Shown in pieces: positions 3,958 through 46,403 of a stretch of DNA of 64,000 nt (position 1 is its first letter; each line of letters begins with the position of its first letter). The stretch is taken from assembly GCA_025350695.1 (NCBI GenBank), contig JANXXI010000235.1, forward strand, positions 1 to 64,000. Direction: 5' to 3'. This stretch comes from Acidobacteriota bacterium (GTDB lineage: Bacteria; Acidobacteriota; Terriglobia; Bryobacterales; Bryobacteraceae). The notes below the pieces were generated by a model that was not told the DNA's origin, made no database searches, and saw nothing but the letters and a program-made list of their open reading frames with translations. The position numbers were made by a program, and so were the translations under genes.

Positions 3958-6471
3958 ATGGCGAAACTAGTCCGCAAAGCGCCTCGGTCCCCACTCTGGA
4001 TAAGATTGCTTGAATCTAACGTCTTTCGATGGACGGCGGGTGTTTGTGGGGGCCTGATCCTCATACTAGTGGGCATTTTCACCTACTTTTGGATCACGCA
4101 CTCGCGCATGATTGATGAAACCCTGGCGCGGGGGCCATACAACACATCCTCTCGTATTTACGCCGCGCCGAAATCCATTCATGTTGGAGATGCAGCCACT
4201 TCAGATGAACTGCGAGCCCTGCTGAGAAACGCCGGATACGGGGAATCGAAATCGAACCGGATGGGCTGGTATAACACGCGGCCCGGGGTGCTGGAGATTA
4301 TTCCTGGTCCCGATTCTTTTTCTGAAAACGATGGCGGTGTGATTAAGATTGATGGCGGCAAGGTTAAGGAGATCATCTCGCTGCGCGACAACACGCCGCG
4401 CAACTCCTATCAATTGGAGCCTGAGCTAATCACCAATACCTTCGATCAGAAGCGGGAGAAGCGCCGCGTGGTGCGTTACGAAGATATTCCCAAGGTGCTG
4501 GTGGACGCGACTCTTTCCGCCGAGGACAAACGGTTTTTTCAACACACGGGGTTCGACCCTCTGCGAATATTGAAAGCGTTTTATGTCAACCTCCGCTCCA
4601 ACCGCCATAGCGAGGGAGCCTCCACCATAACTATGCAGGTGGCGCGCAACATGTTTCTTACTCGTGAGAAAACGTGGAAGCGTAAGATTTCAGAAACACT
4701 AATCACGGTGCAGTTAGAATGGAAACTCTCCAAGGAAGAGATTTTTTCCTACTATGCTAACCAGATTGTCGATATGGGCCGAGTCGGAAGTTTTGCTATT
4801 CGCGGATTTGCGGAAGCCTCGCAAGCCTATTTGGGGAAAGATATTCGCGAACTGACATTGCCTGAAGCGGCGTTACTGGCGGGAATGAATCAGCAGCCGA
4901 GCGCAACGAATCCTTTCTTATATCCCGATCGCGCTGTGAAGCGGCGCAACATCATTCTTGGAATGATGCGTGAAAACGGTTACATTACGGATCGCGCTTA
5001 TGCCGAGGCGGTCGCCACGGCTATAAAAGTCACCCGCGGAACCAGCGGGGCGAACGAATCGGCTTACTTCATCGACTTGATCAACGAAGAGCTGGAAAAG
5101 CATTTCAGCGAACATGACTTTACCGGTTCGGCCTACCGCATCTACACCACGCTTGATACGGAGTTGCAGAAGGACGCTACCGAGGCCGTGCGGATCGGAA
5201 TGGCGGAAGTGGACAAGATTTTGGAACGGCGGAAGAGTAAGAATCCAGGTGGCGCGCAGGTGGCATTGGTGGCGCTTGACCCTCAGACGGGAGAAGTACG
5301 GGCGCTGGTGGGTGGTCGCAACTACGCAGCCAGCCAGTTAAACAGGGCACTTGCCAAACGTCAGCCTGGATCAATCTTCAAACCGTTTGTATATGCGGCG
5401 GCTCTGAATACCGGGCTCCAGAACGGTGCGCAGACGGTCTACACCACATCAAGTACAATTGTGGACGAACCGACGACTTTCTGGTATGACGGCAAGCCTT
5501 ATGAGCCAAGCAATTACCACCAAGCGTCCTATGGCGTCGTGACGCTACGGCAAGCTTTGTCCCGGTCGATGAATATTCCAACCGTGAAGTTGGCCCAATC
5601 CATAGGATATGGAAATGTCGCGTCGCTTGCGCGGCAAGCCGGGATGGGCAACGCCCGCGGAACCCCGTCGGCTGCCCTCGGATCCTATGAAGTGACGCCC
5701 ATTGACGCGTCAGGCGCCTATACTGTTTTTGCGAATCGGGGGCAATTTTCAAAGCCGTATTGGATTCAAAGCATCCGTGATTCGTCCGGCCAAAGCCAGT
5801 TTGACGGCAAGCCCGTTCATAAACAGGTGATCGATAGCCGTGTGAACTATCTGATGGTGAATCTGATGGAAGAAGTGTTGCGTTCGGGTACTGGCGCCGG
5901 CATCCGATCGAGAGGCTTCGGATTGCCCGCGGCCGGCAAAACCGGCACTTCCCACGACGGCTGGTTTGCCGGGTTTACGACAAAACTCGTTTGTGTAGTG
6001 TGGGTCGGTTTTGACGACAACGAGGACCTGAAGCTGGATGGTTCGCAAGCCGCTCTCCCGGTTTGGACGGAGTTCATGAAGCGAGCTCACAACCATCGTG
6101 AATATAGGGGCGCTACCTACTTCAACGCGCCGGACGGTATCGTAAGCGTGAGCATGGATCCGGCGACTGGGCAACTTTCAACCGAAGCGTGCCCGACGAA
6201 AATTACTGAAGTGTTCATCACTGGATCTCAGCCGCTTGAGACCTGTGCGTTGCATGGCGGCTCGCGCGCGGTGGCCCAGGTATCAGGATGGGATACCCCA
6301 GATCCTCAACAACCGACAGAGGCCGACGTGGCGGCGATAAAGGCTCCGCGCAGAGTTGTGAAGGTAAAACCGCCTCCGGAATCCGCTGACAAGGTTCCGC
6401 AACAGGATCCACAAGCGAAGCCCGAACCTAATAAAGGCTTCTTCGGCCGCATCAAAGACTGGATGAAATAG
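3958..6471 (+). CDS. Bifunctional penicillin-binding protein (PBP1b-like, class A)
   Basis: This enzyme polymerises lipid II glycan strands and cross-links their peptides at the inner membrane. It has a cytoplasmic basic N-terminus, one membrane anchor (about residues 27-46), and a segment at 65-165 resembling the UB2H domain of PBP1b. The glycosyltransferase domain shows EDKRFF (catalytic Glu 189) and STITMQ (222-227). The transpeptidase shows SIFK (Ser 472, Lys 475), SMN (537-539) and KTGT (661-664). All catalytic motifs are intact at 837 residues. The C-terminus is a Pro/Lys-rich tail. The UB2H-like region favours PBP1b over PBP1a; UB2H normally docks an outer-membrane lipoprotein activator. 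Confidence 0.93.
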   Translation: MAKLVRKAPRSPLWIRLLESNVFRWTAGVCGGLILILVGIFTYFWITHSRMIDETLARGPYNTSSRIYAAPKSIHVGDAATSDELRALLRNAGYGESKSNRMGWYNTRPGVLEIIPGPDSFSENDGGVIKIDGGKVKEIISLRDNTPRNSYQLEPELITNTFDQKREKRRVVRYEDIPKVLVDATLSAEDKRFFQHTGFDPLRILKAFYVNLRSNRHSEGASTITMQVARNMFLTREKTWKRKISETLITVQLEWKLSKEEIFSYYANQIVDMGRVGSFAIRGFAEASQAYLGKDIRELTLPEAALLAGMNQQPSATNPFLYPDRAVKRRNIILGMMRENGYITDRAYAEAVATAIKVTRGTSGANESAYFIDLINEELEKHFSEHDFTGSAYRIYTTLDTELQKDATEAVRIGMAEVDKILERRKSKNPGGAQVALVALDPQTGEVRALVGGRNYAASQLNRALAKRQPGSIFKPFVYAAALNTGLQNGAQTVYTTSSTIVDEPTTFWYDGKPYEPSNYHQASYGVVTLRQALSRSMNIPTVKLAQSIGYGNVASLARQAGMGNARGTPSAALGSYEVTPIDASGAYTVFANRGQFSKPYWIQSIRDSSGQSQFDGKPVHKQVIDSRVNYLMVNLMEEVLRSGTGAGIRSRGFGLPAAGKTGTSHDGWFAGFTTKLVCVVWVGFDDNEDLKLDGSQAALPVWTEFMKRAHNHREYRGATYFNAPDGIVSVSMDPATGQLSTEACPTKITEVFITGSQPLETCALHGGSRAVAQVSGWDTPDPQQPTEADVAAIKAPRRVVKVKPPPESADKVPQQDPQAKPEPNKGFFGRIKDWMK

Positions 6472-45919: not shown

Positions 45920-46201
45920 ATGATGACGTGGAAAATTTTCCGGCACAAGGGTCTGAAACGCTTGTCTGAGGACGATGATTCAAGCGGCTTTCATCTCGAC
46001 CGAGCTCATCACCCGTCTGATCTCCATTTGTCCGGCTATCGTCTTCACGCCTTGCGCGGAGAACCCAAGAGTTATTGGAGCGTGACAATATCGTGTAATT
46101 GGCGGGTCTCGTTTCGCTTTTTTGATGGCAACGCGCTTGAGGTTGTTGAAAAACGGGGACTGACGAAACTGACATCTTTTTTCGCCATCGCGAGCAATTG
46201 A
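45920..46201 (+). pseudogene. higB: HigB-type toxin gene, degenerate
   Basis: The reading frame matches RelE/HigB mRNA-interferase toxins: KIFRHKGLKRLSEDDD at the start and SGYRLHALRGEPKSYWSVTISCNWRVSFRFFDGNA in the second half are unmistakable. About 20-25 residues seem to be missing between these blocks, and after EVV the usual DYxDYH end is replaced by residues encoded by the arm of an inverted-repeat element (46148-46259). So it is probably inactive, although a stable short protein cannot be excluded. The antitoxin remnant follows. Confidence 0.75.
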
Positions 46202-46259
46202 TTTTTCTAAACGGTAACTTGCGGAAAAAGGCTGTCTGTTCCGTCAGCCCCCGTTTTCC
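46148..46259. mobile_element. 112-bp MITE/REP-like element with 22-bp imperfect inverted repeats
   Basis: The ends 46148-46169 and 46238-46259 are 22-nt inverted repeats with 19 of 22 positions complementary; each holds the core AAAACGGGG and CTGACG. The interior (~68 bp) codes for nothing I recognise. The element joins the 3' end of higB to the ribosome-binding site of higA, so it probably inserted in the toxin-antitoxin operon. GGGGACTG-type arms resemble REP elements mobilised by REP-associated Y1 transposases (RAYT). No target-site duplication is obvious. Confidence 0.6.
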
Positions 46260-46277
46260 TAACGGAGGAGTAAAAGT

Positions 46278-46403
46278 GTGCCAATAAAAAATCCACAGCA
46301 TCCAGGCCATTCGATTAAAGACGCCTGCCTTGTGAAACGGTATCACGTTTCACTTGCAGGAACTGAAACCGCTGATCAGCACTCATGCGTGGAATTTCTT
46401 TGA
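46278..46403 (+). pseudogene. higA: HigA antitoxin N-terminal remnant
   Basis: A perfect GGAGGAG (46264-46270) stands 7 nt before GTG 46278. The first 18 codons give VPIKNPQHPGHSIKDACL (Met at initiation), the signature start of HigA-type HTH antitoxins. The frame then reads VKRYHVSLAG... and stops at 46403 after 41 residues; the HTH is missing. VKRYH recalls the C-terminal end of some HigA proteins, so an internal deletion may have fused the two ends. The operon order toxin-antitoxin is as in intact higBA loci. Confidence 0.7.

Follow-up and report, generated by a model that had tools for sequence, protein, structure and literature searches.

On the forward strand of the 64-kb window (the whole stretch of DNA that was analysed), the remnant of a higB-like toxin gene (45920-46201, 93 amino acids; PF05015, 1.6e-8 over residues 26-74, and similarity to relatives) runs into the core of a mobile hairpin element, GAAAAAC-GGGG...CCCCC-G-TTTTC (46148-46258). 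The alignment of the copies described below, together with pair counts, delimits a left arm (46148-46185) composed of an A-tract, GGGGACTGACG, AAACTGACATC and TTTTTTCGC, and a right arm (46221-46258) composed of GCGGAAAAAGGCTGTCTGTTCCGTCAGCCCCC, a G and a T-run. Behind the core lie CTAA (46259-46262), a target-type tetranucleotide which, in an alignment made by eye, falls opposite the stop of higB in a relative (L069), and a ribosome-binding-like stretch, CGGAGGAG (46263-46270), similar to the one found behind higB in the same relative. The remnant of a higA start (46278-46403, 41 amino acids) follows; it gave no Pfam match at E 0.001 and was recognised by eye from the likeness of its N-terminal DNA to that of HigA of relatives. 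On the other side of the core, positions 46139-46148 hold a possible remnant of an outer terminal repeat, GAGGTTGTT (46139-46147) / GAGGTTGTTG, to be compared with the GAGCTTGTTG of other copies, so that the left side of the element may include 46139-46147. This stretch overlaps HigB codons 74-76, and residue 76 is V here and D or E in the 11 fetched HigB relatives.

The similarity of HigB to its relatives stops at residue 75-76 (46144-46147) and residues 77-93 are encoded by the element, in agreement with the sequence-only reading, in which the element supplied a new C-terminus. All 11 fetched relatives end with D/E, two residues, D/N, Y, H and a stop. In the window, a GTT codon (V) is followed by the element, and C-TAA and the ribosome-binding-like stretch are found only beyond it, as behind the higB stop of G001; the comparison of the two endings indicates that higB is short of about 14 nt next to the element. 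Thirteen internal residues of HigB are absent as well by comparison with 10 of the 11 relatives, the match of the eleventh (L076) starting past that stretch. HigB and HigA are thus both remnants and, since the pair carries these other lesions, the element is only one possible cause of the breakage of the operon, which had been tentatively attributed to it.

The 22-nt ends of the hairpin (46148-46169 and 46238-46259) are complementary at 19 of 22 positions, as previously read, and this is the single site of the window that reaches at least 19/22 at that spacing; AAAACGGGG and CTGACG were likewise found in the arms. The element strand of the window copy had a folding energy of -49.7 kcal/mol (z = -4.46), equalled by none of 200 shuffles, and six other copies gave z values of -7.1 to -13.8. 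The window had no match in Rfam at the gathering threshold.

To the suggestion that this is a small non-autonomous element, the host genome (G000; 7.19 Mb, a draft of 391 contigs) gave a clear answer. A DNA search, in which 40 of its 74 candidates were scored, recovered dozens of copies with 85-94% identity, a pattern search with the inner left arm gave 52 matches against 0 for the control, and a profile search of 59 fetched loci (39 first and 20 more; locus L066 held no copy) located the element in at least 61 places, 55 of them with full-length copies. These 55 copies can be aligned over about 110 nt, loop included, with a mean column identity of 83%, while their flanks are unlike. The element is short, devoid of a transposase gene, bounded by terminal inverted repeats and present in many copies, which are features of a MITE, and the search for further copies of the arms, which could have left the hairpin as the only one, did the opposite.

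At E 0.001 the element was absent from 60 relatives, 36 of which belong to the same genus or family, bar one partial match of 38 nt in G058; this match, to the left arm and inside a gene whose product we take to resemble a STAS-domain protein, was regarded as a chance similarity. Parts of a full-ended copy were found in 3 of 256 other sampled genomes of the order, a search in which at most three candidates per genome were scored and which is therefore a weak test of absence. An exact 20-mer had one match in genome_contigs, in an archaeal MAG, which was also put down to chance (about 0.5 expected by our own estimate, in a collection that possibly does not include the window's own genome), and none in viral contigs. 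Searches of plasmid and phage collections with the full-ended copy L006 were negative at E 1. Synteny around a single site, L028, pointed to a region of G001 that is 71-75% identical, with both genes on separate contigs and no clean empty site.

Of the 55 copies, 14 carry a recognisable outer repeat, GAGCTTGTTG (at most two changes), on either side of the core, 11 carry it on one side, among which the window copy (left side), and 30 on neither side. The full form of the element would accordingly read as a target CTAG/CTAA (YTAR), GAGCTTGTTG, the core GAAAAANGGGGACTGACG...CGTCAGTCCCCN'TTTTTC, the outer repeat CAACAAGCTC and the target again. Eighteen copies, namely the 14 with both outer repeats and L030, L034, L049 and L059, were listed by hand, the ends of L059 and L034 having been misread by the script in that listing. 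CTAG, CTAA or TTAG lay directly outside the outer repeat in 10/18 copies on the left and 12/18 on the right, and the four letters were identical on both sides in five, one of which is the suspect L023. No clear target duplication was seen at the window copy. Across the copies, a YTAR occurred within the nearest 20 nt in 21/53 (left) and 30/53 (right), against 7/53 and 5/53 further out. The same YTAR on both sides was found in 7 copies, for a shuffled mean of 4.8 (186 of 1000 shuffles reached 7). Direct repeats in the flanks exceeded all 200 shuffles in one test; with five windows, the observed values were reached by 68, 1, 103, 185 and 248 of 300 shuffles.

Two copies called for caution. The flanks of L004 and L023, close to contig ends, are inverted over the whole 55-nt comparison (identical at 53 and 55 positions) and are likely assembly fold-backs at the hairpin. 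Both were left out of the statistics on flank direct repeats, YTAR and private changes (L036 also, in one direct-repeat test) and were included in the counts of outer repeats, gene-end distances, CTAG stops, T-runs and the 18 hand-listed copies. In L012, L036, L059 and L008, the flanks are complementary past the target tetranucleotide, and for such complementarity the copies' own flank pairs exceeded shuffled ones (5 of 300 reached the observed value). At these sites, the element gives the impression of having landed in palindromes or terminators that were already present; some REP dimers are reported to be inserted within palindromes in a passage of PMC3733652.

We searched 396 genomes of the phylum, the host included, for the pattern CTAG-GAGCTTGCTGAAAAA. 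Two matches were found in G185 and one in G384, each one change off, and G418 contained one further single match with one change. The three copies in G185 and G384 belong to an insertion sequence, a unit of 1276 bp (counting CTAG) that is bounded on each side by CTAG-GAGCTTGCTGAARAA. Its 357-amino-acid protein, tested on the L087 copy, is of the IS5 family (NF033581, 256 bits for a cut-off of 140), scored below the cut-off of the IS1182 model (190 of 270) and contains the Pfam domains DUF772 and DDE_Tnp_1. The left end of L023 is identical to the end of the L087 insertion sequence over 22 nt (22/22), and L006 matches at 18 of 19 positions, so that the element shares its outermost 19-22 nt with an insertion sequence of other genomes in the phylum, whose transposase belongs to the IS5 family. 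The host assembly itself had 0 matches to P0001 and 0 to DUF772; in a draft of 391 contigs, the parent transposase may be missing from the assembly. The E. coli IS5 has C(A/T)A(G/A) as target and a 4-bp duplication, according to a passage of PMC11677980. Among ten listed plasmid matches, the nearest named element was ISAzs10, 60% identical to the transposase of G185, and the stretch around it (L097) had no match to GAGCTTGTTGAAAAA with up to four mismatches. G613 contains another hairpin MITE (-76 kcal/mol), which shares the ends, CTAG-GAGCTTGTTGAAAAAGGGGACA, but has a different middle, GAGCTTGTTG being joined to AAAAAGGGGAC. In that genome, which belongs to another genus of the family, an element-type end (L104 1496-1530, contig C442) begins some 2 nt downstream of the stop of a 491-amino-acid ORF.

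The position of the copies was then related to genes, using our own hexamer-based ORF caller and no annotation; higB and higA were not called by it and the window copy is therefore outside the gene-abutting set. Among gene ends neighbouring a copy, 36 of 65 3' ends, including 7 that touch or overlap it, were at most 30 nt away, against 7 of 51 5' ends, with median distances of 17 and 103 nt, respectively. The copy was closer to the 3' end in 24 of 34 tandem settings (p 0.024), and 23 3' ends lay within 15 nt where 10.1 were expected, a figure reached by none of 5000 random placements in the same 48 gaps. The stop codon with its preceding base read CTAG in 11 of 31 abutted genes and in 9 of 90 other genes (p 0.0035), this being one of four stop-codon comparisons, the other three of which gave p values of 0.06, 0.035 and 0.08. 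In six copies (L002, L008, L023, L049, L057 and L062), the 10-nt outer repeat begins immediately after the stop. Together with the CTAG stops, these junctions indicate that in many cases the stop codon itself serves as the target. Selection against intragenic insertions would also favour siting at gene ends, and the two causes are confounded here. At L037 (near 1460-1500), a copy stands directly behind what appears by eye to be an ordinary intrinsic terminator.

The shape of the hairpin is that of a bidirectional intrinsic terminator, from which a function in termination is inferred. Four consecutive T follow the stem on both strands in 48 of 55 copies, and a G+C stem followed by a T-run is found behind genes, with a loop far longer than that of a textbook terminator. 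When 35 pairs were examined over 54 distinct rows, 94.4% of the cells paired, and 30 cells were changed on both sides with pairing kept, against 11.0 in shuffled data (0/500); 17 of these 30 double changes fall in one pair, beside the A-tract. Column variation was lower in the stem (0.038 and 0.030) than in the loop (0.158). Private changes per column were slightly fewer in the stem (0.65 and 0.56) than in the loop (0.85), and a test for selection on the RNA strand, comparing G-U with A-C by side of transcription, was null, so that maintenance of the element by selection as a terminator is only possible. A terminator, the alternative to which the sequence-only reading would have yielded, does fit the positions of the copies but does not displace mobility, the two being compatible.

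The same reading had called the element MITE/REP-like and likened its arms to REP sequences mobilised by RAYT transposases. The first half of the name was borne out by the copy number and the IS5-type ends, and the second was not. A REPIN, in which two inverted REPs are moved by a RAYT (a Y1 transposase), would account for a hairpin that is extragenic, prefers the 3' ends of genes and carries compensatory changes, all traits reported for REPs or REPINs in passages of PMC3116915 and PMC3733652, and the host does possess one RAYT-like gene, the only Y1 match found in its assembly (PF01797, L040). However, the ends of that gene are a different, 52-bp repeat, unrelated in sequence to the element (score 6.0 for a shuffled mean of 6.1). 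The RAYT arm folds alone (z -3.87), whereas the left arm of the element does not (z 0.16 for the window copy and -0.13 for L006) and the right arm in the window forms a weak 5-bp stem (z -3.73); the left arm is thus not the imperfect palindrome that each arm of a REPIN would be. No GTAG tag was seen at the element ends, and the outer repeat is that of an IS5-type insertion sequence. The REP/REPIN reading is mostly refuted and we consider it very improbable. The RAYT-like gene (L040 1399-2100, contig C74) is bordered by its 52-bp, 98% identical inverted repeat of two REP-like hairpins, and the ORFs around it, judged by eye, resemble type II secretion or pilin genes.

Two other explanations bear on what the mobile unit is, or whether there is one. 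The core (GAAAAA...TTTTTC) might be its own unit with another mover, core-only copies being the true form and the GAGCTTGTTG ends a later or separate addition. The 30 core-only copies have fairly sharp borders, L005 and L006 possess identical cores with different ends, which point mutation alone cannot explain, and in G615 core-type arms without outer repeat bracket a possible toxin-antitoxin pair. Yet core-only copies also have a YTAR nearby on at least one side (18/30, for a background of 5/30 further out), the outer repeat is present in 15 of 23 copies of a short-branch clade against 10 of 32 in the other clade, as if lost over time, in a tree with no well-supported fork, and the G613 element has the same GAGCTTGTTG in another context; we judge this explanation unlikely. 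A non-mobile origin, in which intrinsic terminators of the usual kind, all of a single sequence type, were multiplied by convergent selection or duplication, would agree with the placement behind stop codons and with the A-stem-T shape, but is hardly credible for copies that align through the loop between unlike flanks, that have outer ends in common with an insertion sequence when full, and that are missing at E 0.001 from the 60 relatives apart from the G058 fragment.

Taken together, these data make it probable that the hairpin in the window is a member of an IS5-type MITE family with a YTAR target that is often a stop codon and a terminator-shaped hairpin. Copy number, ends, site preference and shape were observed, as was an insertion sequence with the same ends elsewhere, and from these we infer mobilisation by an IS5-type transposase. 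The element would presumably have been moved in trans by an IS5-family enzyme no longer visible in the host assembly. With the target tetranucleotide often coinciding with the stop codon (C-TAG, C-TAA), a duplicating insertion would leave the gene end unchanged and place immediately after the stop a long hairpin, preceded by an A-tract and followed by a T-run. Several observations fit the IS5-type MITE less well: more than half of the copies have no recognisable outer repeat, the exact 4-bp duplication was seen in five of the 18 hand-listed copies, one of them suspect, pairwise YTAR did not exceed shuffles overall and the direct-repeat signal in the flanks was mixed, no transposase of that type was found in the host assembly, flank inversion beyond the target is not predicted by a simple IS5 insertion, and the evidence for selected pairing is uneven. 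In the window, the element would have been inserted at the CTAA corresponding to the stop of higB, and the loss of sequence before it would let the HigB frame run 17 codons into the element. Even if the stop-codon reading fails, the family explains the odd C-terminus of HigB by an insertion rather than by a variant toxin.

A broader proposal, which we put forward tentatively and hold to be possible though not the favoured outcome, is that the 4-bp target of a transposon family serves at the same time as a stop codon: each insertion would restore the stop and deliver a bidirectional terminator, spread would be harmless or useful, and the terminator core would be kept while the ends decay, leaving about 60 terminators throughout the genome that derive from a mobile element. 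If true, this would give a simple reason for the harmless multiplication of a hairpin in a gene-dense genome and a concrete route from transposon to regulatory DNA, the target carrying the stop and the body the terminator. No description of a MITE with a stop codon as target was found among the matches listed in the open PMC literature, which is not proof of absence.

The closest known system is the IS5 family with its MITEs, which has in common with the element the ends found in G185 and G384 and a 4-bp target of CTAG/CTAA type; the differences are that no transposase lies inside the element or was found in the host, and that the outer repeat is frequently absent. MITEAba12, a MITE of 111-114 bp with 90 reported copies that is most conserved at its ends, resembles the element in these traits but differs by a 9-bp duplication and by its parent, ISAba12, as given in a passage of PMC6382973. 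Uptake-sequence terminators, in which a repeated sequence pair forms a hairpin and possibly a terminator (a passage of PMC2267715), consist, unlike this long mobile hairpin, of paired uptake words, and ordinary intrinsic terminators differ by the same length and mobility. In G615 (L100 479-1529, contig C19 at about 5290-6341), element-type arms of 26 nt, 88% complementary and 999 nt apart, surround Gp49-like and HTH_37 genes, possibly a toxin-antitoxin pair forming a cassette carried between such ends.
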